Of a DNA stretch of 40,897 nt, positions 9,069 to 40,897 are shown in pieces. The first letter of the stretch is position 1. Each line of letters starts with the position of its first letter. The stretch lies in the IMG/VR virus record IMGVR_UViG_3300038701_000883, positions 1-40,897 of that record, one strand, 5' to 3'. The position numbers and the translations under genes are program-made. This DNA comes from a virus. The notes under the pieces were generated by a model, which saw only the letters and a program-made list of their open reading frames with translations, was not told where the DNA came from and searched no databases.

Positions 9069-9349
9069 TGGCAGCTGGTCTCCTCTGGTAGCTGCTCGCT
9101 GAACACCACGCGAATGCGTCCGCGCGGCGTGTGCTGGCATCGCTTGATGGTCAAGCTGCCGAACTGCGGGATGGAGTGCCGATCGAGCAGGTAGTCGATG
9201 GCGTCTCCGATCATGGTCATCGGGGTCCTCGAGGCCTCCGGACCCACGCTGACGTGGATGTAGGGCGCCCGAAAGCCCGACAGCCCTGCGTTCATCCTTC
9301 CTCCGAGCAGATCACGGACCGTAGTGTCCATCTGGCAGGTTCGCATCAT
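9065..9349 (-). CDS. Hypothetical small protein
   Basis: 94 residues, coupled on both sides by ATGA overlaps. Mixed α/β composition with a helix MIGDAIDYLLDRH and a terminal strand GRIRVVFSEQ. The first in-frame ATG at 9349 was kept because it gives the overlap with the ninB-like stop. Not recognised. Confidence 0.7.
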   Translation of the reverse strand: MMRTCQMDTTVRDLLGGRMNAGLSGFRAPYIHVSVGPEASRTPMTMIGDAIDYLLDRHSIPQFGSLTIKRCQHTPRGRIRVVFSEQLPEETSCQ

Positions 9350-9825
9350 GCTGCGCGCTCCTCTCTCTGGCGCTCACGTTCGATCTCGCGGATCCAGCCC
9401 GCGCGCATGGCGGGGTCTGGCTGCGTGATCTCGATGTCCCACTCGGCGGCCCAAGCCTGCACGCGGTCCATGAGGGCCAGGTAGTCCGCCTTCGACAGCC
9501 CCTCGGTGCTGCGGCGGCGCTCGAACGTCCTGCTGCCGACCGTGACCTCGCGCGTGCCGATGAACTCCCGACACAAGGCCTCCTTTACGTCTTCGAGCTC
9601 GTTGCCGCTGGCGTTGGCGATCTCGCCGAACCACATGTGCAGGGTGTTCCGCATGGACGCGGAGCACGGGATTCTGGGCGTGCGGAGAGTGATCTGCAGC
9701 GGAGTCGACCGATCCCGGACGACGGCCTGCCAGTGGGCGCGGATCCAATTGATGGCGCGGTCCAGATCGCCGTCCTCGCCGGGGCGGATGAACGCGCTGC
9801 GCGGCTTCATCTCGACCTTGCTCAT
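9346..9825 (-). CDS. ninB: NinB/YbcN-like recombination accessory protein
   Basis: 159 residues from ATG 9825, which overlaps the ninG stop (ATGA). NinB-family proteins bind single-stranded DNA and help recombination in lambdoid phages. Features that fit are an N-terminal region with AINWIRAHW and PLQITL, then MRNTLHMWFGEIAN, matching the conserved 'QN..LHxW.GEIA' type helix, and a DVKEALCREFIG segment after it. Position next to ninG strengthens the call. The longer in-frame extension upstream of 9825 lies inside ninG and was dropped. Confidence 0.7.
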   Translation of the reverse strand: MSKVEMKPRSAFIRPGEDGDLDRAINWIRAHWQAVVRDRSTPLQITLRTPRIPCSASMRNTLHMWFGEIANASGNELEDVKEALCREFIGTREVTVGSRTFERRRSTEGLSKADYLALMDRVQAWAAEWDIEITQPDPAMRAGWIREIERERQREERAA

Positions 9826-10502
9826 GCTTCCCTCGCCATCTCGGCCTCGAGAAGCTCGCGGCGGAACTGGTAAGGGCAGACCGCCTTCCCTTCCTTCCGC
9901 AGCATGCGGTGGTGCTTCAGGGTCGATCGAGCCTCGTCCCGGATGCGGCGCAGGCCGTCTCGGTCGAGGCGGTCGTCGTCGTGCGGACCGTCCAGCCAGC
10001 GCACCATCTCGGCGCCGTAGCGGGCCAGCAGGCCCTCGCGGTACTGCTGCCGGGTGTGGCCGCCGGACGTGTTGCAGGCCTTGCACTGCAGGTGGATGTT
10101 CAGCGCCGAGAATCGGATCGGCCCAGGGTTCGCGCCGGTTCCAAGGTAGTGCCCAGCGTCGAAAGCGCCTCCGCGAATCGGGTCTGAAATCTCCTTCTCT
10201 CCGTTGCAGGTGATGCAGTGAAATCCCCAGCCTCGGTCGAGCTCGCGAACCAGCCGGTTAACGGCCTCCTGCGCCTCCTCCAGCAGCTTCGGGCGCGTCT
10301 TCAGGCGCTCACGGGCGTCCGCCTGCTCCCTGCGCCGCTCCATGGCCGCACGCTTCTCTGCCTGGCGGCGCTTGCGCTCGACGGCCTCCCGGGCCACCTC
10401 GTGCGCGCAGCGAGGAGAGCACACCTTCTGCATGCTGTTGCGCGGCTCGAAGGTGCGGCGGCACGTCTTGGCGCGGCAGGTCTTCGGCTTCAGGGCCTTC
10501 AC
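9822..10502 (-). CDS. ninG: NinG (Rap)-like recombination nuclease
   Basis: 226 residues. NinG/Rap is a structure-specific endonuclease that acts on recombination intermediates. The N-terminal zinc ribbon is visible as C9, C14, C28 and C32 (KTCRAKTC, then KVCSPRCA), followed by a long charged helix of about residues 35 to 80. The C-terminal half contains a second Cys-rich, HNH-like region (HCITCNG, DAGHYLG, LQCKACN). These are the diagnostic features of the family at the usual length of about 200 residues. It is coupled to the P-type gene upstream and to ninB downstream. Confidence 0.9.
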   Translation of the reverse strand: MKALKPKTCRAKTCRRTFEPRNSMQKVCSPRCAHEVAREAVERKRRQAEKRAAMERRREQADARERLKTRPKLLEEAQEAVNRLVRELDRGWGFHCITCNGEKEISDPIRGGAFDAGHYLGTGANPGPIRFSALNIHLQCKACNTSGGHTRQQYREGLLARYGAEMVRWLDGPHDDDRLDRDGLRRIRDEARSTLKHHRMLRKEGKAVCPYQFRRELLEAEMAREA

Positions 10503-12431: not shown

Positions 12432-12767
12432 ATGCCCGAATTCACCAATGCCGGCGGCTCTCTTGGCCGCTCCATCTACGACGCGCCAGAGCGCAGTGGA
12501 AGCGAAATCGAAGCGGAGCGCATCGAGCGGATCATGGCGCAGGTGTCGCGCCGTGATCTCGAGCGCGCGCTGATCGTCATGCTGTCGGCGGCACGCACGG
12601 CAGAGGGCGAGCAGGGCCGCTTGCACGACACCCTCCGCCCGGTCGTCTCGAAGGCGCTGCAGGACTGCATCGACAACATCGGGAGCGCGCTGGTCGAGGA
12701 GGGAATCGACCAAGTCGCGGAGATCATCGGCGCCGACGCCCTCGACATTCTGGAAGGCGACGCATGA
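12432..12767 (+). CDS. First gene of the rightward unit, helical protein of unknown function
   Basis: 111 residues. ATG 12432 was chosen because AAGGAAA lies just upstream and because the longer frame from 12339 would begin before the promoter. The protein is helical and acidic, with IERIMAQVSRRDLERALIVML in the middle and a C-terminal EEGIDQVAEIIGADALDIL. The stop overlaps the methyltransferase start (ATGA). As the first early product it may be a host-takeover or anti-defence protein, but nothing in the sequence shows this. Confidence 0.75.
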   Translation: MPEFTNAGGSLGRSIYDAPERSGSEIEAERIERIMAQVSRRDLERALIVMLSAARTAEGEQGRLHDTLRPVVSKALQDCIDNIGSALVEEGIDQVAEIIGADALDILEGDA

Positions 12768-13789
12768 CGGCGTACTACAACGAGATCGACCCCTTCGCGG
12801 CTGAGTGGTTGCGGAACCTGATCGACGCAGGGCACATCGCCCCGGGCGTCGTGGACACCAGAAGCATCACAGAGGTGACAGCGGATGACCTTGCCGGATT
12901 CACGCAGTGCCACTTCTTTGCAGGGATCGGTGGATGGAGCCTCGCAGCTCGACTTGCCGGGATTCCCGACGACTACCCCATCTGGACCGCCAGCTGCCCC
13001 TGCCAGCCGTTTTCGGTCGCCGGGCGCCAGCGCGGAGTCGACGACGAGCGCCACCTGTGGCCCGTCTTCCGCGACCTCATCGCGCAGTGCCGACCTGCAG
13101 TCGTCGCTGGAGAGCAGGTTGCGAGCAAGGCTGGCCGGGCGTGGCTGTCCGGTGTACTCGATGAAGTGGAAGGTCTGGGATATGCCGGGGCGGGAGCCGA
13201 TTTGTGCGCTGCGGGCGTCGGCGCCCCGCACATCCGCCAGCGCCTCTACTGGGCGGCTCTCGCCGAACACGTCGGACGGCACGGCGGAGCAGCTGCTGGC
13301 CCGGAAACAGGCCATGGCGGACCGGGGCGTGCAGCAGGGCGTCTCGGTGACGCAGCTGGCGCATCAGGCGCAGATCGCGGGCTGGGTCACGCCAAGCGCC
13401 CGGGACTGGAAGGACACCCCGGGCATGAGCCTGACGGGCACGAACCCGGACGGGACGCTCCGCGCGCGGATCGACCAGCTGCCCCGGCAGGCGGCGATTG
13501 CGGGGTGGCAGACGCCGAAAGTCGCGGACGCGACAGGCGGGCAGACAAGCCGAGGCGGGAAGCGGAAGCACGAGTTGCTGCTGGGGGGCGAGGCGCGAGC
13601 AGCGGCGGCTGGGATGATGTCATCTGGCTCCCTTGCGCCGACGGAAAAGCCCGGCCCATTGAACCCGGCCTTGAGCCGCTGGCTCATGGGGTTCCCGGCC
13701 GCGTGGGACGAGTGCGCGCCTACGGGAACGCCATCGTCCCGGAACTCGCAGCCGAATTCCTGATGGCTGCATTGGAGGAGGACAACTGA
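12764..13789 (+). CDS. DNA C5-cytosine methyltransferase
   Basis: 341 residues. It transfers a methyl group from S-adenosylmethionine to C5 of cytosine, probably shielding phage DNA from restriction. Motif I is HFFAGIGGWSLAARLAG (residues 50-66), motif IV is SCPCQPFS with catalytic C80, motif VI is GEQV where ENV is usual (E117 retained), motif VIII is HIRQRLYW, and motif X is AYGNAIVPELAAEF near the end. Between about residues 165 and 290, where a target recognition domain should be, this frame is a Gly/Ala/Arg/Asp-rich sequence of low complexity. The same DNA in the +1 frame encodes an orderly protein (12885-13763). Ends in TGATG overlap with csrA. Confidence 0.92.
   Translation: MTAYYNEIDPFAAEWLRNLIDAGHIAPGVVDTRSITEVTADDLAGFTQCHFFAGIGGWSLAARLAGIPDDYPIWTASCPCQPFSVAGRQRGVDDERHLWPVFRDLIAQCRPAVVAGEQVASKAGRAWLSGVLDEVEGLGYAGAGADLCAAGVGAPHIRQRLYWAALAEHVGRHGGAAAGPETGHGGPGRAAGRLGDAAGASGADRGLGHAKRPGLEGHPGHEPDGHEPGRDAPRADRPAAPAGGDCGVADAESRGRDRRADKPRREAEARVAAGGRGASSGGWDDVIWLPCADGKARPIEPGLEPLAHGVPGRVGRVRAYGNAIVPELAAEFLMAALEEDN
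12885..13763 (+). CDS. Overprinted +1-frame gene within the methyltransferase gene
   Basis: 292 residues, entirely inside the methyltransferase gene. ATG 12885 has its own Shine-Dalgarno, GAGGTGA, six bases ahead. The protein is not a random shadow: it has SLESRLRARLAG and VYSMKWKVW (residues 74-98), a CALRASAPRTS segment, two W-x-T-P motifs (GWVTPSARDWKD at 167-178, GWQTPKVADATGG at 208-219), DQLPRQA, and an ending LNPALSRWLMGFPAAWDECAPT (part, 259-280) then SSRNSQ. I recall this same series of motifs in proteins of prophages, also beside or within C5-methyltransferase genes. Role unknown; a partner or substitute recognition subunit is an inference. Conserved amino-acid motifs in this frame explain the degenerate middle of the methyltransferase frame. 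Confidence 0.78.
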   Translation: MTLPDSRSATSLQGSVDGASQLDLPGFPTTTPSGPPAAPASRFRSPGASAESTTSATCGPSSATSSRSADLQSSLESRLRARLAGRGCPVYSMKWKVWDMPGREPICALRASAPRTSASASTGRLSPNTSDGTAEQLLARKQAMADRGVQQGVSVTQLAHQAQIAGWVTPSARDWKDTPGMSLTGTNPDGTLRARIDQLPRQAAIAGWQTPKVADATGGQTSRGGKRKHELLLGGEARAAAAGMMSSGSLAPTEKPGPLNPALSRWLMGFPAAWDECAPTGTPSSRNSQPNS

Positions 13790-13971
13790 TGCTGGTACTG
13801 ACCAGGCGAGCAGGCGAAGCCGTGATCGTCACCAACGGCACCGAGGAGCTCACGATCCGCGTGAAGCAGATCAGGGGGAAGCAGGTCCACATGACCTTCG
13901 AGGCACCGAAGAGCATGAAGATCCTGCGCGAAGAGGTCATCGACAGAGGAGATGCGAGCGATGGCGCGTGA
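13789..13971 (+). CDS. csrA: CsrA/RsmA-family RNA-binding regulator
   Basis: 60 residues. CsrA dimers bind GGA motifs in mRNA leaders and alter translation and stability. The match runs end to end: MLVLTRRAGEAVIV (L4 and R6 conserved), a central strand KQIRGKQVHMTFEAP, and REEV (R48, E49) as in the RNA-binding C-terminal strand of the family. The normal length is about 60 residues. Its start overlaps the methyltransferase stop (TGATG) and lies behind GGAGGAGGA, three GGA triplets that double as Shine-Dalgarno, so self-repression is plausible. The phage copy could redirect host carbon metabolism or motility, or time phage translation. Confidence 0.93.
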   Translation: MLVLTRRAGEAVIVTNGTEELTIRVKQIRGKQVHMTFEAPKSMKILREEVIDRGDASDGA

Positions 13972-14974
13972 CGTGTTCGAGAAGCTGGCCGAGCAGGCCG
14001 AAGCGGCGGTGCAGAAAGACCAGGAGGTCCACTTCGACTACGCCGACCCGAAGCAGAACAAGGATGCCCGGTCCTACGTCTACGAGCTCCGCCGGCAGAA
14101 GAGCGAAGTCGAGAAGACCCGGAAGGAGAAGACCGCGTCTTTGCTGGAGCGCAAGCGCGCGATCGACGCTCGGGCGAAAGCCGTGATGGAGCCGCTGCAG
14201 GGCGTGATCGACCGGCACGCCACTGAAATCACCCGGGTCGAGGAGGCCGAGAAAGCGCGCCAGGAGGCGCTGGAAGAAGAGCTGGAGCAGCTGCGCCTCA
14301 TGGGCACGGCGACGGGCGAGGACGGCCGCTTGCTGCCCTCTGGCGAGCTCGAGCGCCGCATTGCGCTGCTCGAGGGACAGAACATCACCGCGGACCGCTT
14401 CGGCGAGGCCGTGGAGGAGGCAGAGAACCTGCAGACCATGGGTCTCGCCGTGCTTCGGCAGGAGATCGAAGTGGCCCGCACGCAGGAAGCCGAGCGCGAG
14501 GAGCTCGACCGGCTGCGCCGCGAGGCTGCCGAGCGCGAGGCCGAGGAGCGCCGGCGACAGGCCCAGCGCGCCGCCGAGGAGGAGCAGCGCGAGCGCGAGC
14601 GCAAGGAGCAGGAAGCCCGCATCGCCCAGCTGGAGCGGGAAGCCAAGGAGCAGCGCCAGCGCGCCGAGCGGGCCGCACAGGCCGAGCGTGAGCGCATCGA
14701 GCAGGAAGCCGCGGCGAAGGCCGCCCGGGAGGAGCAGGAGCGCCAGGAGGCGGCCGCGAAGGCCGAGGCCGAGGAGAAGGCGCGCAAGGACGCCGAAGAG
14801 CGCAGGGCCGCCGTCACGGCGCGCTACAAGGCCGCGAAGGACACCACGCTCATGCAGCTGGAGCACGCCATCGATGATGCTTCCGACATGGATCCGGCGG
14901 ACCTCGCCGAGCACCTGTTCAACCTGATCGACGGGGGCGAGACCTTCTCGCACCTCCACTTCGCCGCCGAGTGA
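13961..14974 (+). CDS. Long coiled-coil protein ahead of the recombination genes
   Basis: 337 residues from ATG 13961, with AGAGGAG eight bases ahead; ATG 13952 overlaps that site and is less likely. The N-terminal 90 residues have a KDARSYVYELRRQKSEVEKTR pattern often seen in phage proteins encoded next to RecT/ERF recombinases. From about residue 90 to 290 the protein is one Glu/Arg/Ala/Gln-rich coiled coil, followed by a short globular C-terminus with TTLMQLEHAIDD. It may serve as scaffold or cofactor for recombination. The repetitive GAG/CGC codons leave long open frames on the other strand. Confidence 0.8.
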   Translation: MARDVFEKLAEQAEAAVQKDQEVHFDYADPKQNKDARSYVYELRRQKSEVEKTRKEKTASLLERKRAIDARAKAVMEPLQGVIDRHATEITRVEEAEKARQEALEEELEQLRLMGTATGEDGRLLPSGELERRIALLEGQNITADRFGEAVEEAENLQTMGLAVLRQEIEVARTQEAEREELDRLRREAAEREAEERRRQAQRAAEEEQRERERKEQEARIAQLEREAKEQRQRAERAAQAERERIEQEAAAKAAREEQERQEAAAKAEAEEKARKDAEERRAAVTARYKAAKDTTLMQLEHAIDDASDMDPADLAEHLFNLIDGGETFSHLHFAAE

Positions 14975-14987
14975 GGAGAGATTGACC

Positions 14988-15785
14988 ATGCAGACCACCG
15001 AAGGGGGCGTGCTCGTTCCCGAAGAGCGCGAGGCGCGCATGCCTGCGCGGCACCAGCACGGCGGAGACCTGGTCAGCGCCATCGCCGTCGCGGCCGCCGA
15101 CCCCCGCACCGACGTGGAGAAGATGCGCGTGCTGCTCGACATGAAGCGAGAGCACGAAGCAGACGAAGCTCGGAAGGCATTCGTGGCAGCGATGGCGGCG
15201 TTCCGCGCGAACCCGCCGAAGATCGAGAAGACCGTGCATGTCTTCTACCAGAGCCAGAAAGGCCCGGTGGATTACTGGCACGCCGACATCGGGGTGATGT
15301 CCGAGAAGATCGGCGAAGCCATGGCGCCCCACGGCCTGTCGTTTCGCTGGACGACGAATCAGGCCGACGGTGGCGTCATCACCGTGACGTGCATCCTGCA
15401 GCACGAGCTCGGGCACTTCGAGGAGACGCGCCTGTTCGCGTCCCCGGACCAGTCGGGCGGAAAGAACAGCATCCAGGCAGTCGGGTCCACCGTGCAGTAC
15501 CTGCGTCGCTACACCCTAGAGTCCGCGTCCGGCGTCGTGGCGCAGTCGGGGAACTTCGGCGACGCCGCATCGCCGGAACCTGCGGAACCAGCGGAACCTG
15601 AGCGCATCACCGAAGAGCAGCGCGCGAACCTGCAGAAACGGCTCGAGGCCTGCGGCGCCGACATCGCCGCCTTCTGCAAGCTCTGCAAGGTCGAAAGCCT
15701 TGCCGACATCACGCAGGCGAAGTGGCCCGGGGTGCTGCAGCGGATCGAGGCGAAGGAGAAGTCGCAGAAGGAGAAGCAGGCATGA
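14988..15785 (+). CDS. erf: ERF-family single-strand annealing protein
   Basis: 265 residues. ERF proteins form rings that anneal complementary single strands, as in P22. ATG 14988 has GAGGAG nine bases ahead. The core of the domain is visible: FVAAMAAFRANPPKIEKT (about residues 60-77), then YWHADIGVMSEKIGEAMAPHGLSF, GVITVTCILQH, and the SIQAVGSTVQYLRRYTL helix typical of the family, ending near residue 180. A Pro/Glu linker and a C-terminal helical tail follow. It is coupled to the exonuclease two genes on, making a RecE/T-like pair. Confidence 0.93.
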   Translation: MQTTEGGVLVPEEREARMPARHQHGGDLVSAIAVAAADPRTDVEKMRVLLDMKREHEADEARKAFVAAMAAFRANPPKIEKTVHVFYQSQKGPVDYWHADIGVMSEKIGEAMAPHGLSFRWTTNQADGGVITVTCILQHELGHFEETRLFASPDQSGGKNSIQAVGSTVQYLRRYTLESASGVVAQSGNFGDAASPEPAEPAEPERITEEQRANLQKRLEACGADIAAFCKLCKVESLADITQAKWPGVLQRIEAKEKSQKEKQA

Positions 15786-15904
15786 GTGACCAGGGCGACG
15801 ACCGGAACCAGTTCCCTGACTTCCTGTTCGGCTTCACCTGCGGCGCAGTGTTCGTGATCTTAATGCTGTGCGCTGGCGTGGCTCTTATGAAGTCAGTGTC
15901 GTAG
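15782..15904 (+). CDS. Small single-pass membrane protein
   Basis: 40 residues, starting ATG 15782 in an ATGA overlap with the ERF stop. The first twelve residues are polar and acidic (MSDQGDDRNQFP), and residues 13 to 36 form a transmembrane segment (FLFGFTCGAVFVILMLCAG core). A membrane peptide between a recombinase and its exonuclease is odd; it may be an exclusion or signalling peptide. Function unknown. Confidence 0.65.
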   Translation: MSDQGDDRNQFPDFLFGFTCGAVFVILMLCAGVALMKSVS

Positions 15905-15913
15905 GGTGACACG

Positions 15914-16525
15914 ATGATGGAGCAGCAGACTGCAGAGTGGTACGCGGCCCGGGTCGGGAAGTTCACGTCCAGCCGGATGACCGACCTGAAGTCGGACCGC
16001 TACCGCTGGCAGCTGGCCCTAGAGCGTCTCACGGGGCGCTCGCACGAGCCGCAGTACCAGTCGCGCGAGATGCAGTGGGGCAACGAGCACGAGGCCGACG
16101 CCGCTGATCTGTACTCGTTCCTGACCGACAGAGGGCTCGAGAAGGTTGGCTTCATCGACCACCCGACCATGCCGCGGTGCGGCGCCAGCCCGGATCGGCT
16201 CGTCGTGGGCGAGAAGGGCATGGTCGAGATCAAGTGCCCCGCGTCGCACACCCATGGCGCCTACCTGCTGGGCGCGCCGATCGATCGCGGCTACGTCCTG
16301 CAGATGCAGTGGCAGATGGAGGTGGCGAAGCGAGACTGGTGCGACTGGGTCTCCTACGACCCGCGCTTCGAGGGCGGCGACATCCCGCCCGGATCCGAGA
16401 TCATCATCCGCCGGGTCGAACGTGACGCGGCGTTGATACGGACCCTGCGGTCCGACGTGAGGAAGGCCGACAAGGCCGTTCAGGACCTGGTGCTCCAGGT
16501 CAGCCAGAGAGGAGAGGCTGCATGA
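15914..16525 (+). CDS. YqaJ/lambda-type 5'-3' exonuclease
   Basis: 203 residues (ATG 15914 or the adjacent ATG 15917). It digests one strand of double-stranded ends so ERF can anneal the other. The PD-(D/E)XK nuclease core is clear: GNEHE (E60), CGASPDRL (D94), VEIKCP (E105, K107), and the LQMQWQMEV helix that follows in the YqaJ family. AGGGTGA lies about seven bases ahead of the start. The stop overlaps the start of the next gene (ATGA). Confidence 0.93.
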   Translation: MMEQQTAEWYAARVGKFTSSRMTDLKSDRYRWQLALERLTGRSHEPQYQSREMQWGNEHEADAADLYSFLTDRGLEKVGFIDHPTMPRCGASPDRLVVGEKGMVEIKCPASHTHGAYLLGAPIDRGYVLQMQWQMEVAKRDWCDWVSYDPRFEGGDIPPGSEIIIRRVERDAALIRTLRSDVRKADKAVQDLVLQVSQRGEAA

Positions 16526-28338: not shown

Positions 28339-28965
28339 TCAGTCTCCGTAGGCGCTCGTCACGTCCAGCGGCGAGCCGGTGGTTTCCTGCTCGCCGTATT
28401 CCTGCAGCGCCGCATCCATGGCTTCGGTAAACAGCTGCCCGAACGCAGGCAGGCGCTGGTCCTTCGCCGCGAAGGGCATGTACTCCATCATCGACCCGTA
28501 GAGGTAGAGCTCGGGGAACTCCGTGAGGATCGGGTTCGTGTCGTCCTCAGCGGAAAGCGTGCCGGCGTAGCTGCGGAAATACTGATGGATGTAGGCCGTG
28601 GCCTCGCCCGGCGGCGGCCAGAGCTCGAGCGTCGCGCCGACGCGCTGGTACGCGCGCTGCCGAGCGTTCGTCTCCGGAAGGGTGATCTGCAGGCTCTCGA
28701 GCTCCATGTCCGTGACGCGCTCAAGCGGGTAGCCGCCCACCGTGAGCAGCTTGGTCTCGATGTAGCCCTCGGGGAGCGTGATGGTGCCCGTCGTCGTGCC
28801 CGTGTCTGTCAGCTGGTTCTGGCGCACGCGAAGGCGCCGGAAGATGCGCCGCTCCGCCAGCATGACGAAGCCCGGGATCCGGGCAGCCAGATCCTTCCTG
28901 CCGTACATGTAGTCGGCAAGAGAGGCCTTCAGCTCGCCGTAGTTGGTGAACAGCAGGTCGGCCAT
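28339..28965 (-). CDS. Head-tail adaptor protein (SU10-like)
   Basis: 208 residues. Proteins of this type form the ring below the portal. Recognisable elements are LKASLADYMYGRKDLAARIPGFVMLAERRIFRRLR at the N-terminus (parts), a central β region with GTITLPEGYIE and LELWPPP, and a C-terminal helix ELYLYGSMMEYMPFAAKD followed by a small helix. These match the adaptor family that follows the coat protein in SU10-like and related phages. Located between a 135-residue protein and the fibre. Confidence 0.82.
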   Translation of the reverse strand: MADLLFTNYGELKASLADYMYGRKDLAARIPGFVMLAERRIFRRLRVRQNQLTDTGTTTGTITLPEGYIETKLLTVGGYPLERVTDMELESLQITLPETNARQRAYQRVGATLELWPPPGEATAYIHQYFRSYAGTLSAEDDTNPILTEFPELYLYGSMMEYMPFAAKDQRLPAFGQLFTEAMDAALQEYGEQETTGSPLDVTSAYGD

Positions 28966-28966
28966 G

Positions 28967-29374
28967 TCACGCTCCGATTGCGTTGATGATGGAGAGCTCT
29001 CGCTTCGGGCGAGCCGGTCGGCTCATGGGCCGCGCTGCTGTGACCTGCTTCGGCATGAGCGCGGGGTGGTTGATCTGCAGCCACTTCATGAATCGGTCCT
29101 TCTCGCCGCCCTCGTTGCGCGCCCACACGTCGTAGCCTATCCGGCGCTGCGTGAGGTAGTCGATCAGCAGGCTCTGCGGGATCGACCCGCGGTAGGTCCA
29201 CTCGCGCGGATTGCCGCGAGACGGCGCACCGTTGACCTTCGCGTCCATGAAAGCGACGTGGCTCTTGATCGCCTCCACGTTCTGACGGTGGCCGCGATAC
29301 GCGACCCCGTCCTCGTAGCCGAAGTAGCGCGCGATGTCGCCGCTGTGGCGCGTGACGCGCTTGATGTCAGCCAT
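28967..29374 (-). CDS. Hypothetical head/neck region protein
   Basis: 135 residues. Contains VEAIKSHVAFMDAKVNG and an SLLIDYLTQRRIGYDVW helix, with a basic Pro/Arg-rich tail ending in SIINAIGA. Eight-base overlap with the sulfotransferase stop and one base from the adaptor. Position suggests a neck or assembly protein. No family recognised. Confidence 0.7.
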   Translation of the reverse strand: MADIKRVTRHSGDIARYFGYEDGVAYRGHRQNVEAIKSHVAFMDAKVNGAPSRGNPREWTYRGSIPQSLLIDYLTQRRIGYDVWARNEGGEKDRFMKWLQINHPALMPKQVTAARPMSRPARPKRELSIINAIGA

Positions 29375-30281
29375 CGGCCGCCTCCTTCATGCGCTGCCGA
29401 GCCTCCTCGGCCGCCGCATCCTGCGCGCTGCGCTGCGCGTCCACGAACGCCTGGTCGGCCTCTGCGGGCGGCTCGAGGTCTTCCTCGCGCACGCTGTTCT
29501 TCGCGCCGTTGGGCCGGGTCTCTTCGGTGGCCTCCGCGGTCACGGTGTTGGCGGCCTTCGCCACCTGGTCAGCGGCTTCCTCGGCCGTGGGCTCCTTCAC
29601 CTTCTTCGGGCGGCCCCGGCGCTTCCCCTCTGACCCCTGGGTCCTTTCCGGTTCCGGCGGGTCGAAGGGGTAGGACAGCATCTCGAAGTCCTGCGCGTAC
29701 CGGGCGCGGACGAGCGTGACGAGCTCGGGCGTCCACTTCGGCGGCTCGGCCTTCGACGGGTTCAGGCGCCGCAGAGGCTGCACGATGGTCCCGCAGTGCG
29801 CGCGGATCTGCGTCGTCAGGTCTTCCCAGCGGTCCTCGATGGTCTCGAGCGGCACGAGGATGTCCCAGCAGGGCTTGCCCTCGTAGTGCCAGTCCCAGGT
29901 CTGCAGGCGCACATGCGGGTCGGTGCCGGCGTTGTCGCGCGTGGCGGCCACGGCGTGGATGAAGGCGTCGAAGTCCATGCCGTGCTTCACGCCGTGCTTC
30001 AGGAGGTTCGGGTGAGAGCGGTCGATCACCTTGTCCCGCCAGCAGGACACGAGACGGTCGAACGGGTTCCGACAGATGGCGATCCGCAGGTAGCCGCGGT
30101 TGCCGGCGTCGAAGGCGTCTAGGGGGCCGATCCTCGGGATGGCGCTGCGGCGCAGGCTCGACTGGTTGTGGACGCCCAGCAGCGGCGCCAAGGCGTCGGA
30201 GACGCTTGTCGTGCCGCACTTGGCGGCCTGTAGCACGATGATCTTCGAGTCGCGGAAGTGCAGGTTCTGGGATGCGGGCAT
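29367..30281 (-). CDS. PAPS-dependent sulfotransferase with AT-hook C-terminal extension
   Basis: 304 residues. The first 206 residues form a carbohydrate-type sulfotransferase, which moves sulfate from PAPS to a sugar. The 5'-phosphosulfate loop is QAAKCGTTSVSDAL (18-31). The 3'-phosphate loop is ICRNPFDRLVSCWRDKV (69-85), and the domain ends RYAQDFEMLSYPF. All are at the usual spacing. An unrelated tail of about 95 residues follows: GKRRGRPKKV (219-228), a textbook AT-hook, then an Ala/Glu-rich helix. The gene sits between coat and adaptor in the head cluster, which is unusual. Substrate unknown (host surface glycan, or the virion). No PAPS synthesis gene is present, so the donor would be the host's. 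Confidence 0.85.
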   Translation of the reverse strand: MPASQNLHFRDSKIIVLQAAKCGTTSVSDALAPLLGVHNQSSLRRSAIPRIGPLDAFDAGNRGYLRIAICRNPFDRLVSCWRDKVIDRSHPNLLKHGVKHGMDFDAFIHAVAATRDNAGTDPHVRLQTWDWHYEGKPCWDILVPLETIEDRWEDLTTQIRAHCGTIVQPLRRLNPSKAEPPKWTPELVTLVRARYAQDFEMLSYPFDPPEPERTQGSEGKRRGRPKKVKEPTAEEAADQVAKAANTVTAEATEETRPNGAKNSVREEDLEPPAEADQAFVDAQRSAQDAAAEEARQRMKEAADG

Positions 30282-30317
30282 GGTTGCTCTCTCTCGATGC
30301 CAGGGTCAGAAACGACA

Positions 30318-30351
30318 CGGCGCCATGAGGAAGCAGGTCCCCATGGCGCCG
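30318..30351 (-). terminator. Terminator downstream of the coat gene
   Basis: A perfect ten-pair inverted repeat (30318-30327 with 30342-30351, CGGCGCCATG / CATGGCGCCG) with a 14-base loop. On the minus strand it is followed by TGTCGTTTCTG. It lies 31 bases beyond the coat stop and ahead of the sulfotransferase, where a partial terminator would raise coat over downstream expression. Confidence 0.7.
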
Positions 30352-30382
30352 CGGTGGTCGGTCGGCTTCCGGAGCCCTCGGA

Positions 30383-31327
30383 TCAGGAGATCGTCAGGCT
30401 GGCCGGGATGTTGTCGACCATGAAGTGCGCCTTGCTGTTCAGCACCGCGATCGTGCTCTCGCGGAGGATTTGACGGCGGTCGGCATCACCGTTCTTCGCC
30501 AGCGCCCAGTCCGTGGTCGGGCGGAACACGGGCGTCGCGAGGAACCGGAAGTCTAGGCCCAGGAAGCAGTCGTCTTGGTTCCGATCGAGGACCACGTCGA
30601 GCTCGCCGTACTGCGAGACGTAGAGGTCGATCACGTTGACGATGCGGGACTCGTTCTGCATGTCACGCTGCCGGCCAGCGACGTAGGCGAAGCTCGAGAT
30701 GAACTGCGACCGCAAGGGGTCGGTCATCAGGTAGCCCGGGTTGCCGCCGGCGTTGTAGCAGGCCAGGTGCGCGTCCAGCACGAGCGTCTCGAGTTCCGGG
30801 ATCGTCGTGATCGCCGTGGAGCCGGAGGCGGCCGTGGCGGCGTCCTGGATCACCGAAGCGTCCAGCTGGGAGTGCAGCGAGGCCATCTCCCGCGCCGTGG
30901 TGGCCGAGCCGGCCGAGCCGGTCTGACGGGCCGGGCCAGCGTCCGGGGAGCCGACGATCGCGAGCTCCTCGTCGTTCGCGAGCTCGCCGTACTTCAGCTC
31001 CAGCTGGTAGGCCATCTCCGAGTCGCGGCCGTACTTGTCGATCTGCTCGAGCGTGCCGCTGATCTCGGCCGTCTTGGTCATGATCTGGCAGTTGTTGCTC
31101 TTGTTCACCATCGCCTGGGACGAGTCGGCGGGGGCGTCGGCGCCCTCGACGGCAGCGTTCTTGGCGGCGGCGACGAGAGCGTCCTCGTGCCATTCGTGGA
31201 GCTTGCCGGTCGCACGGATGGTGCGCGACATGGCCGCGGTCGGGTTGTCGATCGGCGAGATGAGGTACACCTCATCCTGCACGTCCTCGGCCTGACCGAT
31301 CTGGGTGTAGGTATCGAAATCTGCCAT
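30383..31327 (-). CDS. Major capsid protein, SU10 type
   Basis: 314 residues. The HK97-fold coat protein of SU10-like phages is recognisable from its start (FDTYTQIGQAEDVQDEVYLISPIDNP), then KLHEWHEDALVAA, VEGADA, CQIMTKTAEISGTLEQIDKYGR, and MAYQLELKYGEL. These follow the order found in that family. Length is normal. It follows the scaffold gene by 23 bases and is followed by a hairpin terminator, in line with very high expression. Confidence 0.93.
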   Translation of the reverse strand: MADFDTYTQIGQAEDVQDEVYLISPIDNPTAAMSRTIRATGKLHEWHEDALVAAAKNAAVEGADAPADSSQAMVNKSNNCQIMTKTAEISGTLEQIDKYGRDSEMAYQLELKYGELANDEELAIVGSPDAGPARQTGSAGSATTAREMASLHSQLDASVIQDAATAASGSTAITTIPELETLVLDAHLACYNAGGNPGYLMTDPLRSQFISSFAYVAGRQRDMQNESRIVNVIDLYVSQYGELDVVLDRNQDDCFLGLDFRFLATPVFRPTTDWALAKNGDADRRQILRESTIAVLNSKAHFMVDNIPASLTIS

Positions 31328-31350: not shown

Positions 31351-32538
31351 TTACCGACCGCCCCTCTCCGCAGCAAGCTGCGCGGCCTTCATGCGCCTGA
31401 AGGCGTCCCGGTCACCCGGTTTCGCCTGTGCCTCGCGCCGCGCTGCCTGAAACTGGCCCTGCGCGTTGCGAGACTGCGCCTGTGCCGCCCGCTTGTTGCC
31501 GGGCTTGGTCGGCGTCGAGCGTCGCGTTTTCTCCTTCACCCGGCGCGAGGCCCCTTCGACCTGCATCAGACGATGCCAGGACCGAATCGTGCGCCAGTCG
31601 CGCACTTCTGCAGCCTCCTCCGGCGTGAACTGGAGGTTCTCCACCGCGAACTCACGGATCCTGGAGTACACCTCGTCCGACCAGTCCGGGATCACTCGCT
31701 TGAGCACCCGGAGGCTCACCTGCGCCTGCGCGTCTTCAGCCTTCCTCCGCTCCTCGGCGGCCTTCGCCCGAAGCTGCTGCGAGGCCTGCATCAGACGGTC
31801 CCTGTTCCGGACAGCCTGCTCCAGACCCTGACGCATGCGCTGGAACTCCTCCGGCTTCGACCGGAGCACGTCCCAGTTCACCTGGTCGTACTGGCGGACG
31901 GCCTGCTCGGCGAGGTTCGAATAGAACTGCGCCTGGCTGGTCGCCTCCTCGAATGCCGAGTCGAGACTCTGCATCCGCTCCGTGATGTTGCGCGTGCTCT
32001 CGATGGCTTCGGACTCAGCGCCCTGCTGAAGCTCATCGATGCGCGACAGGTCCCTCATACGGTCCTTCAGCTCGCCGAGCGTGAAGGTCTCGTCAGGATC
32101 GTCTCCGACCCGGAACTCCATCGCGTACAGCTGGTCCGGCGTGATTCCTGCCATCTCAGCCAGCTTGGTGGGAGTCAGCGCGCCGTCTCCGGCATCCCCC
32201 TCGTCACCGTCTCCGGTGGCTTCTTCGGCCTCTTGGCCGCCGTCCTGGCCGCCATCAGCGTCGTGAGTCTCCGGCGTCTCCATTGCCGGGTTGGCGTCTC
32301 CGCCGAGAACGGACTCCGCGGCCTCTCGGACTGCGCGGTCTTCGTCCGTTTCGCCGGTCGAGGTCGGGGCCTCATGGGATTGCTCCCGTCCGCCCCCTTC
32401 CTGCGCCGGCGGCGCGCCCTCCTGCGAGAGCCGCGCCTTGAACCTGTCCCTGGCCGTCTCGGGGCGCTTCAGCCGCGCCTCGGTTGCCAGATTCTGTGCG
32501 GGGCTCTTGGCCGCCGCGATTTCTGCTTCTGTCGGCAT
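31351..32538 (-). CDS. Scaffolding protein
   Basis: 395 residues, directly upstream of the coat gene. It is acidic in the first third (TGDGDEGDAGDG), has MEFRVGDDPDETFTLGELKDRM, a motif common in phage scaffolds, and then long helices with many Glu, Gln and Arg. The C-terminus is basic (RRVKEKTRRSTPTKPGNKRA), as expected for the part that touches coat. Scaffold guides procapsid assembly and is removed before packaging. Confidence 0.85.
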   Translation of the reverse strand: MPTEAEIAAAKSPAQNLATEARLKRPETARDRFKARLSQEGAPPAQEGGGREQSHEAPTSTGETDEDRAVREAAESVLGGDANPAMETPETHDADGGQDGGQEAEEATGDGDEGDAGDGALTPTKLAEMAGITPDQLYAMEFRVGDDPDETFTLGELKDRMRDLSRIDELQQGAESEAIESTRNITERMQSLDSAFEEATSQAQFYSNLAEQAVRQYDQVNWDVLRSKPEEFQRMRQGLEQAVRNRDRLMQASQQLRAKAAEERRKAEDAQAQVSLRVLKRVIPDWSDEVYSRIREFAVENLQFTPEEAAEVRDWRTIRSWHRLMQVEGASRRVKEKTRRSTPTKPGNKRAAQAQSRNAQGQFQAARREAQAKPGDRDAFRRMKAAQLAAERGGR

Positions 32539-33041: not shown

Positions 33042-33153
33042 TGCGTTGAATCCTCATCAGTTGCCGGTGCAGGAGCGGAGACTGCTTCTCCGCGTCCGGT
33101 TTCGGGGTCAGGGAGTTCTTCCGCATCAGCATGCGGTTCTTCGTCTGGCTCAT
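32878..33153 (-). CDS. Small basic protein after portal, overlapping the next gene
   Basis: 91 residues from ATG 33153, which overlaps the portal stop (ATGA). The first 40 residues look like a real protein (MSQTKNRMLMRKNSLTPKPD). The last 50 read like the out-of-frame version of the following gene (many Arg, Ser, Pro). Either both are translated with a 164-base overlap or a frame change joins the N-terminal part of this frame to the next gene. Confidence 0.45.
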   Translation of the reverse strand: MSQTKNRMLMRKNSLTPKPDAEKQSPLLHRQLMRIQRNARSAHRERERRFTLWRSERHAGRDPGALPDDPAVRPSRERSIDLGGRPSRKSR

Positions 33154-35273
33154 GTGCCCGCCTTCCTCTCGTCCACCTCGACCTTGCGCTCCTCGAGCGC
33201 GAGCTCCCGGGCCTTGAACTGGATGTCGGTGTCGAGCTCCCGGTCCTTCCGCTCGTTGTCGACGCCCATGTCCACCACCTCGATCTGGCGCTTGTAGGCC
33301 TCGGCTCGCGCGCGGAGCCACTCGCGGCCGTCTGCGCTCTGGGCCATCTGGCGCATGAATGCCTCCGCCATGGCCTGCGCGTTCGCCTGCTGCTGGTTCT
33401 GGCGCTGGATGGCGGTCATGCGCTCCTGGGCCTGCGGGCTGGACGGAGACAGCAGGAACGGCGAAGAGTCGGTGACGCCCAGGGCATCGAGAATCTCATC
33501 GAACACGGCGTGCTTCTGCTCGACGCCGAACAGGACCTTCATGTCAGGGTCCTCGCGGACGGTCGCGTAGTAGCTCGCCAGAGCCTGGGCGTATTTCGCC
33601 GTCTCGTCCGGCGTCAGAGCGGCGTGCGCCTTCATCTCGATCGGGGTGTGCGGGAACGTCTGCGCCGGGACGTAGGTCGTCATCTGGCCGCGCACCTCGA
33701 GCTTGTGCGCCTGGCGGTCGTGGCGGGCGCCCAGCATGACGATGTACTGCACCAACGGGATCATCAGCGTCTCGGCGAAGTCCCGGGCCGCCTTCATGAC
33801 GCGCCGGTTCCCGGAATTCGTCAGGCGCTCGATCATGTCATCGGCGTTCTGGTAGCGGATCGCGTCGGTGTTCTGGCCCCGGCCGAGGCTGGACTGGCCG
33901 CCGCGGCGGTCCTTGTCGTAGTCCATGCGCTGGATCAGCTGCAGGGTGAACGGCGAGAGCTCCGGGGTCTCTAGCGCGCGCACCGCGTTGCCCGTCTTCG
34001 ACCAGACCGTGCCGCCGATTCGGTTCTGGAGCAGGTCGCGCGGGTTCAGCACGTCGCCCTTCCGCGCCTCGAGCCGACTGGTGTTCCGCATCTGCTGGTT
34101 GTCGAGCGCCAGCCGCACGAGGCTCGAAGTCGTCTTCTGCGAGTGCGCGGTCACGTCCGCGTCGGCCAAGCCCATCTCGGCGTGGCTGATCTTGAACTCT
34201 GTCCACTCGAAGTAGGGAATCTCGGTCCGGCGCTGGATGGCGGGCGTGCCGTCGGCCCAGTAGAGCACCTCGCCGTCGGCAAAGTAGATGCGGAACAGGC
34301 GCAGGGTGTCGAGACTGTCCTCGCTGATCCCGGCGGCCTGCATCCAGATGTCGCGCTCGTCGTCCGGAGCCGCGTTCACCACGTCCCAGCCGGTCAGCCA
34401 GGTGTAGACCCGGAATCGATCGACCTCCTCGTGCAGCTCATCGCGGTGGTGCTGGCGGACCGTGGACTGGGTGCGATCGTGCGCCTTCCGCGCGAAGTCT
34501 TCCTCGTAGCGGAAGAACTTGTACTGCCGAGAGAGGCCCATCACCTGATCAGGGTCGAAGCCGTCGAGGATCAGCTGCGCGCGCGACAGGGCCTTCTGGT
34601 CGCCGGCGTACATGGAATCCCAGACGTAGGGGCGCGACGAGTCCCGATAGTAGAGCTCCGGCTGAATGAGATCGATCTCACTCATGTAGTCAGAAGTCCG
34701 GACGACGATCTCGCCCGTCATTCCGTCCTCGCCTTCGGTGACGCCGGAGATGTCCACGTCCACGATGTTCTCGAAGCGGTCAATCGCTTGGGCGATGGCA
34801 TCGAACGGCAGGCCGTCCACCTCGAGGATGGTCTCGTCCGTCCGCTGGTCGTTCCAGTCGACGTGGAAGACGCACCGCTTCGCGACGAAGGCGTCGTGCC
34901 AGGCATCCCGCAGCAGATCGGACCAGCGGTTCTTCCGGAGCACCTTCGTGGCGTAGGCCCGGGCGGCGTCGGCGCCGTCCTTCGACACCCCGTTACCGCT
35001 CTCGAACTTCACGACCTCCCGGCCAGACAGGAACGTCTCGTGGAAGAGCGCCTTCTTGCCCTCCACCGAGTCAAGCACGTCGGGCGAGACGTAGTGCGAC
35101 CGCCCGCGCTGCTCGTTCCCCAGCGGCTGCATCGTGTAGTAGCGGTGGTTCCGCTCACGCTGCTCGCCCACCTGATCCATCGTGCTGTCCGCGGAGGTGA
35201 CCTGCGCCTCTAGGAGCTTCACGAGGTTGTAGGCGCTGCCGTGGGGCGCCGTTCCTGTCCGCTGGGCCTTCAC
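33150..35273 (-). CDS. Portal protein, P22 type
   Basis: 707 residues, close to P22 portal (725). Portals form the dodecameric vertex for packaging and tail attachment. Recognisable parts are QRERNHRYYTMQPLGNEQ and SHYVSPDVLDSVEGKKALFHETFL near the N-terminus, AWHDAFVAKRCVFHVDW, the central YPYFEWTEFKISHAEMG-like region (IPYFEWTEF here), a QNRIGGTVWSKTGNAVR segment, and a Gln/Ala/Glu-rich C-terminal helix that may form the barrel. The start is two bases from the upstream stop. Confidence 0.9.
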   Translation of the reverse strand: MKAQRTGTAPHGSAYNLVKLLEAQVTSADSTMDQVGEQRERNHRYYTMQPLGNEQRGRSHYVSPDVLDSVEGKKALFHETFLSGREVVKFESGNGVSKDGADAARAYATKVLRKNRWSDLLRDAWHDAFVAKRCVFHVDWNDQRTDETILEVDGLPFDAIAQAIDRFENIVDVDISGVTEGEDGMTGEIVVRTSDYMSEIDLIQPELYYRDSSRPYVWDSMYAGDQKALSRAQLILDGFDPDQVMGLSRQYKFFRYEEDFARKAHDRTQSTVRQHHRDELHEEVDRFRVYTWLTGWDVVNAAPDDERDIWMQAAGISEDSLDTLRLFRIYFADGEVLYWADGTPAIQRRTEIPYFEWTEFKISHAEMGLADADVTAHSQKTTSSLVRLALDNQQMRNTSRLEARKGDVLNPRDLLQNRIGGTVWSKTGNAVRALETPELSPFTLQLIQRMDYDKDRRGGQSSLGRGQNTDAIRYQNADDMIERLTNSGNRRVMKAARDFAETLMIPLVQYIVMLGARHDRQAHKLEVRGQMTTYVPAQTFPHTPIEMKAHAALTPDETAKYAQALASYYATVREDPDMKVLFGVEQKHAVFDEILDALGVTDSSPFLLSPSSPQAQERMTAIQRQNQQQANAQAMAEAFMRQMAQSADGREWLRARAEAYKRQIEVVDMGVDNERKDRELDTDIQFKARELALEERKVEVDERKAGT

Positions 35274-38424: not shown

Positions 38425-39552
38425 TTAAAACGCGAGCCGCGCGCCGCCAGTACGATCCGAATAGCTTACGGATGGAATCGAATTTACGCAGAAGGCGCCC
38501 GATGCGTCGTTTATTTTTCCGTTGCCACCGAAACGAGTAGTAAGCGAAAGAGCAGTTGCTGCACTATGCTGGTCCGCAAGATACGTCGTAGAGGAACCTC
38601 CTGTATTATCTCCGGAAAGAAAGTAAGCTCCGGTGTTGAGAATGTTCCGAATGAATCCAGTCGCGGTCGGAAACGAAGATGAAAGCAGCGTGTAGCCAGT
38701 CGTGGTGTTGTCCGCAAAGTCAGTGTAATCATTCGTGACGTGGACGTTCCCGGCACTGCCTTGGTTTACGTTGATACCATCGCACCAATTCCAGCAGTTG
38801 CCGTACCAGTTTTCGATGCCTCGGTAGGACATGAATGCCGTGTCGCGAGAGGCACTTGACGCTCCGCTGGTGGCGTCCGTGGATGCGTTGCCCAGAGAGT
38901 TGCTCTTGCCTGCCACGGAATGCGGGCTGTCGGTTTGGTTGCTGGAGCCAGACGGATAACCCGACGTTACATCGGTATTTCCATCGCCCAAATTCGCTTG
39001 CGTGTTGAAGTCTGCATACTCCACCAGATACAGCATCTGGATAGCAGACCACAGGGCAAAGTCGAGCTGATGCCAACCCGCCCCTACGTTTTCGGCAAGC
39101 GTCCGGCACTCGTCTCGCGTTACCCCGACCAGCGGATAGATTCCTGACACGGATGCGAGCTTGTCATTCGACATGTCGAGATTGCTGGTCATGTCGTTGA
39201 GGTTCAGCCCCGACTTATAGTTGCCGTCCGTCGCGTCCAAATAGCAGGCGTCATAAGCCCCGATGTAGCGGTAGTTGACCTCCGATCCCGCCTTCGTGAA
39301 AGCGGGATGCAGCGTGAAACCGGAAAGCGCGAGTTTCGACACCTGCCAAGTGTTCAGCGTACCGACGAGGGTGTGCTTGTAGTAGAACTTCGGAATCTCA
39401 ACCATGACGTTTCCGTCCGTGCCGTCGAGCACAGATGACGTCACGCCGTCAGCCTTGAGCGTACTGTCAGAGGCGTCAAGGTAATAGTTCACGCTGCCGT
39501 CCGCGTTCAGCACGCAGCGTTTCATGTCGAGCCAAGGCCTAGAGTTGCTCAT
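38425..39552 (-). CDS. Receptor-binding tail protein with C-type-lectin/FGE-like C-terminal domain, full copy
   Basis: 375 residues. The N-terminal part (SRPWLDMKRCVLNADGSVNYY, then MVEIPKFYYKH) is the standard beginning of a large group of phage tail proteins. From about residue 115 a formylglycine-generating-enzyme or C-type-lectin-like fold follows, with WHQLDFALWSAIQMLYLVEY, AFMSYRGIENWYGNCWNWCDG and a final GGARLAF. This fold serves phages as a binding surface and is the one diversified by retroelements elsewhere, but no reverse transcriptase or template repeat is present. GC content is clearly below the neighbours, and codon use differs (many Asn, Thr, Tyr), suggesting recent exchange. 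Likely the main host-range determinant. Confidence 0.85.
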   Translation of the reverse strand: MSNSRPWLDMKRCVLNADGSVNYYLDASDSTLKADGVTSSVLDGTDGNVMVEIPKFYYKHTLVGTLNTWQVSKLALSGFTLHPAFTKAGSEVNYRYIGAYDACYLDATDGNYKSGLNLNDMTSNLDMSNDKLASVSGIYPLVGVTRDECRTLAENVGAGWHQLDFALWSAIQMLYLVEYADFNTQANLGDGNTDVTSGYPSGSSNQTDSPHSVAGKSNSLGNASTDATSGASSASRDTAFMSYRGIENWYGNCWNWCDGINVNQGSAGNVHVTNDYTDFADNTTTGYTLLSSSFPTATGFIRNILNTGAYFLSGDNTGGSSTTYLADQHSAATALSLTTRFGGNGKINDASGAFCVNSIPSVSYSDRTGGARLAF

Positions 39553-40779
39553 TTATTTGTCCCATTCATAGCTCTGGCTCCGGGAACCAGCCTTGGGCAT
39601 CTGCCTCGGCATCGGTGAGTGCGTTGGCTTGCAGCGTTGGCGGCAGAAGTTCGGCCACGGTCAGGGTGCTATCCCGCGCGGCTTCTAGAACGGCGGCGAG
39701 TTCATCCTGCTCTTGCTGCGGGATCGGCAGTGCCGAGACGAATGCAGCGATGTCGGCATCGGGCGCGACGCGCTGGGTATAGGTGTCGGGGATCGAGAGG
39801 GCCACGTCGCCGGACTGCGGGTGGATGATCCAGCCCACCGCGTAGCGGGTCGTGCCCGTGGCGGTCGGAACAGCCAGCGCCCAGAGCGCGGCGCTCATGG
39901 CCTGCGCGTAGTCGATGGTGGGGTGGGAGAGGGAGAGAATCATGACGCAGTCCCCGAGATGCCATAGCGGTCCAGCATGGACTGCTCAATCGCCACCCGA
40001 TCTGTGGCGTCGCCTACTACGATGACCTCTGCGAGTTGGTCGCTTAAGGCAGCAGTGATAACGCTGCCAGAAATATAAGCTCCGACCGTTAGTGGAGCCG
40101 TTGTATCGTTCAGCGTACTAAAACTGTCGTCACGGATTACGGTTGGCGACGTGACAGCCACGCCGTCCAGATACAACGTCAGCGCGCTAGATTCCCACTT
40201 GAACGCCACGACATGAAAACCGGATGAAGAAACCCCCGATCTGTAAGCCTTGAGGTTTGAAGCGGTGCCGTCCTCGCTCAATGCCACATTTAAGCGGTTA
40301 TCAAATTCCCCAATCACCCAGCTGCGTTCGTCAATTCCTGAATTATATGATCCTGCCGCCGTAGATAGGCTGGCATTGTTAGCAAACTCAACCACCACCG
40401 CGACATATAGGCTCGTGCGATTACCGCCGACCGGCGACGCTGCCTCCAGAATGCTGGTGCCGCCGAAATCAGGCGCAGGCTCTCCGTTGATGTTCTCGAC
40501 GCTGCCGCTCGTAACGATCTGCGGCTGCTCGGCTGCGGTCGCTTGATCAACGTCAAGCGCAGAGCCGGACTGATCATAGATAGTGGCGACGAAACCGTTA
40601 TTGGCGCCCGTAAATGTGGTAAGCGCGCTCTGATCCAGCTCGCTTGCGTCGTTGAACCCGATGTCCTGCTCAGTGTTGTCGGAGGACCGCCGCACGCGCA
40701 CACCGTCGCCCGTGTAAGCAGAGCGCAGCTGGAACGCCGTCGAGTACGCTGCAAGGACGTTGGAGACGCCATCGAGGGG
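38820..40779. repeat. Terminal repeat, right copy (matches 1-1960)
   Basis: See the left copy. Beyond 40779 the sequence turns into a different version of the adhesin stalk, so the contig ends in a variable region, as expected when an assembler meets two strains. Confidence 0.95.
39566..39943 (-). CDS. Small protein between adhesin and receptor-binding protein, copy 2
   Basis: Identical to 747-1124 at offset 38819; see that entry. It represents the same gene seen from the other end of the contig. Confidence 0.75.
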   Translation of the reverse strand: MILSLSHPTIDYAQAMSAALWALAVPTATGTTRYAVGWIIHPQSGDVALSIPDTYTQRVAPDADIAAFVSALPIPQQEQDELAAVLEAARDSTLTVAELLPPTLQANALTDAEADAQGWFPEPEL

Positions 40780-40897
40780 AAGACCCCCAGCAATCTGCCC
40801 ACTCGCCGCACTAGCCGCCGAGTCGGTGCCGTTGGCGTTGGTTTCGGTTTGCACTGCCCGGACGTACTCGTCCTCATCGGCACTGACGAGCGTGTAC
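39940..40897 (-). CDS. Tail adhesin, second allele, 5' end beyond the window
   Basis: About 319 residues of the C-terminal part, open at the window end. From LPLDGVSNV onward it equals the protein of 1121-2674. Upstream the two differ: here the end of an Ig-like repeat (VQTETNANGTDSAASAASGQ) runs into the C-terminal domain after only AGG. In the other allele about 30 extra residues (ITAVSGAFSEVTWDSS and on) lie between them. This is a different stalk on the same binding domain. The junction is at 40779/40780. Confidence 0.85.
   Translation of the reverse strand, partial: YTLVSADEDEYVRAVQTETNANGTDSAASAASGQIAGGLPLDGVSNVLAAYSTAFQLRSAYTGDGVRVRRSSDNTEQDIGFNDASELDQSALTTFTGANNGFVATIYDQSGSALDVDQATAAEQPQIVTSGSVENINGEPAPDFGGTSILEAASPVGGNRTSLYVAVVVEFANNASLSTAAGSYNSGIDERSWVIGEFDNRLNVALSEDGTASNLKAYRSGVSSSGFHVVAFKWESSALTLYLDGVAVTSPTVIRDDSFSTLNDTTAPLTVGAYISGSVITAALSDQLAEVIVVGDATDRVAIEQSMLDRYGISGTAS

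Follow-up and report, generated by a model that had tools for sequence, protein, structure and literature searches.

What does a sulfotransferase gene do among the head genes of a phage, and what would its product modify? We addressed this question in a viral record of 40,897 nucleotides (IMG/VR IMGVR_UViG_3300038701_000883; this whole stretch is referred to as the window), in which a predicted sulfotransferase gene is located between the genes encoding the major capsid protein and the head adaptor. An earlier note, made from the letters of the DNA, had described a full-length sulfotransferase domain with both PAPS-binding loops and an AT-hook tail in this head cluster, and had proposed that the enzyme may sulfate a host-surface glycan, so as to exclude other phages, or modify the virion.

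The sulfotransferase gene and its SU10-type head cluster

The gene (29367..30281, minus strand) is an open reading frame of 304 amino acids on the same strand as the head genes. Its GC content at third codon positions is 0.93, and because this equals the value of the capsid gene, the reading frame was taken to be coding. Residues 11-205 (29667..30251, minus strand) matched the Pfam family Sulfotransfer_2 (PF03567) over profile positions 8-252 of 252 (E 4.1e-12; 47.2 bits, cut-off 22), and the reading frame also matched PHROG 3347, "Galactose-3-O-sulfotransferase", a phage sulfotransferase family filed under moron and auxiliary genes, at E 6.5e-7. The full-length domain and its place in a head cluster, both claimed in the earlier note, were confirmed, and the neighboring genes proved to be of SU10 type. 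Based on sequence profiles and a structure model, the 304-residue protein is very likely a sulfotransferase, and the product of the gene is probably a soluble, PAPS-dependent carbohydrate sulfotransferase of the Sulfotransfer_2 family.

We aligned the window protein with 40 relatives from bacteria and viruses, 41 sequences in all; one row (L143) ends where its contig ends. Residues 18-31 (QAAKCGTTSVSDAL; 30189..30230, minus strand) and residues 69-85 (ICRNPFDRLVSCWRDKV; 30027..30077, minus strand) are what we take to be the 5'-phosphosulfate loop and the 3'-phosphate loop, respectively. The first loop contains K21 and the second R71, P73, R76, and S79. R71, P73, R76, L77, and H123 (codon 29913..29915, minus strand, in a DxH..Q region; a candidate catalytic base) were invariant across the alignment, while K21, V70, S79, C80, K84, F104, F107, E146, and D198 were conserved in at least 90% of the sequences. 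Both loops lie where the earlier note had placed them, and their key residues are kept.

The structure model has a mean pLDDT of 80.6. Most positions between residues 61 and 210 score 84-98, and confidence is low for residues 41-60 and for parts of the tail. In a VIA alignment against 272 chains, the best-scoring solved structures were the 6-O-sulfotransferase 5t05 (Z 9.9, rmsd 3.9, 181 residues aligned), the 3-O-sulfotransferase 1t8t (Z 9.6), and the 2-O-sulfotransferase 3f5f (Z 9.5); 79 of the 272 chains had Z of at least 8. Foldseek against the PDB gave weak matches (best E 0.25, none at E ≤ 0.001), the top eight of which were all sulfotransferases, and sequence searches of the PDB with the window enzyme returned no convincing match. 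Against viral models, Foldseek found seven matches at E ≤ 0.001 (best 1.5e-5), most of them named sulfotransferase. The comparison with solved enzymes that had been suggested as a check therefore points to a PAPS sulfotransferase fold by VIA (Z 9.5-9.9), with Foldseek alone being weak. The nearest solved folds are the heparan-sulfate 2-O, 6-O, and 3-O sulfotransferases, with which the window enzyme shares the fold, the cofactor loops, and a complete domain at 11-17% identity to the best of the solved carbohydrate sulfotransferases. Unlike these, it has a compact form of ~190 residues and an extra tail of 96 residues, is encoded in a phage head operon, and appears to carry no export signal.

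Close relatives of the enzyme were not found in viral contigs, either by searching with the single protein or jointly with the adaptor. Among phage records, only CBW1004C-Prop1 matched at E ≤ 0.01; at E ≤ 10, two S-PRM1 records also matched (E 4), and two unannotated megaphage records gave weak matches.

The surrounding genes have the same families and order as the head clusters of SU10-type podoviruses. On the minus strand, we found a portal protein (33150..35273; SU10_portal, 1.7e-76), a head scaffolding protein (31351..32538; PHROG 3927, 9.3e-16), the major capsid protein (30383..31327; SU10_MCP, 6.5e-66), the sulfotransferase, a 135-residue protein (28967..29374) whose gene overlaps the end of the sulfotransferase gene by 8 bases, and the head adaptor (28339..28965; SU10_adaptor, 1.1e-24). 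The capsid, portal, and adaptor families (PF17236, PF23899, and PF24175) were all above their cut-offs. Between the capsid and sulfotransferase genes lies a terminator-like hairpin (30316..30353, minus strand) with a 16-pair stem, a 6-base loop, and a T-rich tail, which could lower the level of the sulfotransferase; the interval has a fold z of -4.4, and the hairpin scan expects 1.1 such sites in the region by chance.

We compared this cluster with SU10-type loci comprising the best 80 of at least 585 confirmed loci, five more, three phage records, and the window. Capsid and adaptor genes are both present in 82 of these loci. Close relatives show the order capsid gene, 135-residue-type gene, adaptor gene, and in most relatives the 135-residue-type gene comes directly after the capsid gene. 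The interval between capsid and adaptor has a median of 400 bp over the 82 loci and is largest in the window (1418 bp). A profile search for sulfotransferases in these loci found none outside the window. Because the 135-residue-type gene has a homolog in 82 of 82 loci and the enzyme is present in none of the other 81, we regard the sulfotransferase gene as an insertion.

Insertions at this place are not rare. The interval exceeded 550 bp in 20 of the 81 other loci, and in the 15 of these that were inspected the inserts included an HNH endonuclease (L040; Pfam HNH_3, 3.1e-10), a similar open reading frame (L093), and small basic proteins (L024, L028, L036, and L077). The capsid-adaptor interval of SU10-type phages is therefore tolerant of accessory genes, and the view in the earlier note that head clusters hold only structural genes was too strict. 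Three loci carry glycosyltransferase-like inserts of ~206 residues between the 135-residue-type gene and the adaptor gene (L008 7281-7898, L041 7289-7909, and L084 7289-7942), with Pfam values of 0.007-0.01 for L041 and L084, below the cut-off, and no Pfam match for L008. Two other SU10-type head clusters contain a small minus-strand protein with a signal-peptide-like start (L005 2862-3299 and L006 5224-5664). In the same two loci an insert of a few hundred bases interrupts the capsid gene (L005 1303-2453 and L006 3288-4423), which is thereby divided between two frames; this may be an intron or a broken gene.

Sulfotransferases at the capsid-connector junctions of other phages

The one phage relative at E ≤ 0.01, gp47 of CBW1004C-Prop1 (MZ188970), is encoded in a head cluster of a different kind, with a P22-type portal and a Phage_capsid_3 capsid. 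This Sulfotransfer_2 protein has 28.9% identity to the window enzyme and no tail, and its gene is located directly downstream of the capsid gene, starting on the last base of that gene. As in the window phage, the sulfotransferase gene comes right after the capsid gene and no glycosyltransferase is annotated in the record. Two viral contigs (L098 and L099) have the same order of capsid and sulfotransferase genes. In this P22-like lineage the dN/dS of the sulfotransferase was ~0.11-0.28, which indicates that the gene is under purifying selection.

We also scanned viral contigs for the motifs without regard to gene position, which yielded 33 loci, all of them sulfotransferases by profile. The 36 records behind these loci and L098-L100 all matched PF03567, 35 of them over the cut-off; L134 and L130 are one record. 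The loci found by motif were grouped into 22 lineages at 50-60% identity, leaving out the window and L098/L099, and five of these place the sulfotransferase at the capsid-connector junction. In L143, 45 bp separate the sulfotransferase gene from a T4-like capsid gene upstream, and the record ends within the sulfotransferase. In L130 it follows a Phage_cap_E-type capsid gene in a cassette with GT-D, FkbM methyltransferase, sialyltransferase-like, and other genes. L131/L151 have it after an HK97-type capsid gene and before a head-tail adaptor gene; in L156 an HK97-type capsid gene is followed by the sulfotransferase with an MptE-like neighbor and then by a homolog of the L131 connector. In L135, glycosyl- and methyltransferase genes precede the sulfotransferase and a head-tail adaptor gene follows, and the record ends before any capsid gene; L135 and L143 were both counted among the five.

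The placement is not universal. Two lineages have the gene elsewhere in the head module, after the portal gene (L132) or between the terminase and portal genes (L133, terminase assigned by eye). The remaining 15 of the 22 lineages have it elsewhere or in a position that could not be judged; in L138 it is ~8 kb from the capsid gene. In the phage DLP_6 the sulfotransferase gene adjoins replication genes, not head genes.

Cassettes of glycan-related genes were seen between capsid and connector genes in L130 (4957-11611), L135 (202-4592, reverse-strand numbering), and L165 (3427-6856). They contain GT-D, GT2-type, MptE-like, and FkbM or other methyltransferase genes, as well as an open reading frame that resembles radical-SAM proteins by eye.

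Pairwise identities among the seven junction sulfotransferases that we compared are 21-36%. The head types of L131, L135, and L156 are not mutually independent, since they share one kind of connector. An AU test did not reject a single origin of the junction sulfotransferases (p 0.067). On the tree, the nine junction rows require seven changes compared with a mean of 8.5 after shuffling, and 41 of 500 shuffles were as low. These results neither show nor reject a single origin: the gene may have been captured repeatedly or may have passed between head types. The binomial probability of five junction lineages out of 22 is 0.0004, 0.004, 0.02, or 0.06 if the junction is assumed to hold 3%, 5%, 7.5%, or 10% of gene slots, respectively, for a category that was named after the data had been seen and from records many of which are fragments.

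An earlier catalogue lists phage sulfotransferases among auxiliary genes and calls their function unclear (PMC10580990). The word sulfotransferase is absent from PMC7824862, and PMC13299392 and PMC10269572 contributed nothing to the question. Within the open-licence PMC literature searched, we found no description of sulfotransferases at a capsid junction or of virion sulfation. The enzyme family and its phage members are thus known, while the capsid-junction placement appears, within that literature, to be new. Its recurrence leads to a testable question: is the sulfate placed on the virion or on a host glycan?

Candidate acceptors of the sulfate

We favor the virion as the acceptor of a late accessory carbohydrate sulfotransferase, with a probability of roughly 0.4. 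In an SU10-type podovirus, an accessory gene has been inserted between the capsid gene and the head gene that follows it, and it would be read with the late head genes, as its strand and place suggest. The enzyme, with no sign of export, would take PAPS from the host cytosol and could transfer sulfate to the capsid or another head protein during head building, onto either a sugar or a hydroxyl side chain. The surface of the resulting particle would be more acidic. The tail may keep the enzyme close to DNA or to heads under construction. If the virion is indeed sulfated, particle charge, adsorption to surfaces or mucus, and recognition by antibodies could be altered.

The virion is favored by the junction placement, by the sugar-enzyme cassettes found there, and by a precedent in mycobacteriophages. 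In Corndog, methyl- and glycosyltransferase genes lie among the head genes, and PMC4351075 proposes that they modify the capsid; for Che8 and Rita, capsid glycans are described in PMC11256854. The Corndog-type cassette of cluster O resembles the window in having modifying-enzyme genes inside the head operon. It differs in that the passages describing it place glycosyl- and methyltransferase genes between portal and protease and name no sulfotransferase, whereas the window phage has no such cassette.

Several observations count against the virion. Unrelated inserts such as HNH endonucleases also enter the capsid-connector interval, so the placement may reflect a tolerated site, and 17 of the 22 lineages are off the junction or could not be judged. 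Members of Sulfotransfer_2 with known substrates act on carbohydrate rather than protein, which counts against a protein acceptor. Pfam scans of 10, 10, and 31 open reading frames of the window phage (with slight overlap) found no glycosyltransferase; as none is annotated in CBW1004C-Prop1 either, a capsid glycan would need host enzymes in both phages.

This last point also brings forward a close rival, which we hold to be somewhat less likely than the virion: the enzyme would act as a host-surface moron, sulfating precursors of host LPS or exopolysaccharide late in infection and so preventing superinfection or re-adsorption to debris. An enzyme on its own depends on an acceptor that is already there, and a host glycan supplies one. 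A host glycan is favored by the lack of a glycosyltransferase in these scans together with the surface-polysaccharide setting of bacterial relatives, which on a Marinovum plasmid adjoin glycosyltransferase and sialic-acid genes, on a Gloeothece plasmid lie among glycosyltransferases, and on an Acuticoccus plasmid are beside an rfb gene and a glycosyltransferase. A search of nine bacterial genomes with relatives of the enzyme found no capsid genes, a result that carries no information. The sulfotransferase gene of L100 likewise adjoins an open reading frame that by eye resembles a sugar glycosyltransferase. However, a gene among late head genes would bring about exclusion only late. In the temperate CBW1004C-Prop1 it is located downstream of the antiterminator Q in the structural block, which is not the expected place for lysogenic conversion, and a role at the host surface does not on its own explain the recurrence at capsid junctions. 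Modification of the virion or of host glycan, as first proposed, is still the best pair of readings, and the recurrence of sulfotransferases and glycan cassettes at capsid-connector junctions strengthens it.

We consider it unlikely that the interval is simply a neutral insertion site, with the enzyme acting elsewhere (on a small molecule, or in DNA or RNA sulfation) or the gene being transient. The varied inserts of SU10-type loci, among them the endonuclease of L040, the similar insert of L093, the minus-strand protein of L005/L006, and the basic proteins of L024, L028, L036, and L077, would fit such a site. So would the comparison of L098 with CBW1004C-Prop1 (L007), whose capsids are 80% identical and sulfotransferases 94%; with differences of 20% and 6%, the sulfotransferase gene appears to move as a module. 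The purifying selection in the P22-like lineage and the repeated pairing at this position with genes for glycosyltransferases, MptE-like proteins, and methyltransferases argue against neutrality. Nucleotide sulfation systems in phages are mentioned in a portion of PMC10829341, and the literature searched held nothing specific to a DNA-sulfation role.

The virion reading can be extended to a general statement: phages sulfate their own capsids, and the capsid-connector junction is a recurring capsid-sulfation locus across at least five unrelated head types (SU10, P22-like, T4-like, cap_E, and HK97-like), ranging from a lone sulfotransferase to full glycan-building cassettes. In this general form the claim is doubtful and somewhat unlikely.

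The C-terminal tail and other features of the window

The tail of the window enzyme (residues 209-304; 29370..29657, minus strand) is not found in any of the other 40 sulfotransferases of the alignment. It is rich in Ala and Glu with a net charge of -6, and its codon-position GC content (0.77/0.52/0.885) is coding-like on its own. The model predicts helices at residues 233-250 and 273-303, the end helix block having a pLDDT of 84-89. A Pfam scan of the tail gave nothing above cut-off, and no relatives of the tail were found in 50,697 phage records.

Of the AT-hook tail described in the earlier note, the basic patch GKRRGRPKKV stood (residues 219-228; 29598..29627, minus strand), while the domain assignment did not. 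The patch scored 11.1 bits against the Pfam AT_hook profile (PF02178), where the cut-off is 17.4, so that we rejected an AT-hook domain and speak of a resemblance. The tail has one copy of the RGRP core, and RGRP[KR] occurs in 3 of 1799 called open reading frames of the compared loci, two of the three being the window gene itself. Tethering of the enzyme to phage DNA by an AT-hook, also proposed there, is weak with a single motif below the Pfam cut-off.

The best matches of the tail in uncorrected BLAST were mostly scaffolding proteins. Under composition correction, the search against open reading frames of the compared loci gave only chance-level E-values; the uncorrected matches thus reflect shared Ala/Glu-rich composition, and kinship with scaffolding proteins was rejected. 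An origin as the relic of a fused head protein was rejected as well: when related loci were compared for an enzyme-less homolog, as had been suggested, the 135-residue-type gene was present in all 81 other loci with capsid and adaptor genes, no tail-like gene was seen in any of them, and composition-corrected BLAST gave no relative beyond chance level.

It is very improbable that the tail carries the enzyme as cargo in or on the particle or the phage DNA, to act at the next infection: a tail unique among the aligned sulfotransferases, with a confidently modeled helical end, scaffold-like composition, and one RGRP core, would suit such a role, but scaffold homology is absent after composition correction, the AT_hook score is below cut-off, and the other 40 sulfotransferases do without the tail. 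Family 3 encapsulin clusters include sulfotransferases, described in part of PMC8346489 as belonging to natural-product pathways; the encapsulin-cargo analogy is a lead only.

Outside the phages, part of a 5364-bp "glycosyltransferase" gene on an E. coli plasmid (L012, 7707-13070) resembles a sulfotransferase; with rfb genes and cysD alongside, this suggests a sulfated surface polysaccharide island. Elsewhere in the window, 9346-10502 and 12764-16525 encode lambda-like early genes (C5-cytosine methylase, ERF, YqaJ, NinB, and NinG), and no integrase family was among the Pfam hits of the window reading frames scanned. Over 1963 bases, positions 1-1963 and 38820-40782 are 99.8% identical, after which the last 115 bases of the window diverge into an Ig-like repeat. 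Classed as linear, the record has the appearance of a complete ~38.8-kb genome with either an assembly overlap or a terminal repeat.
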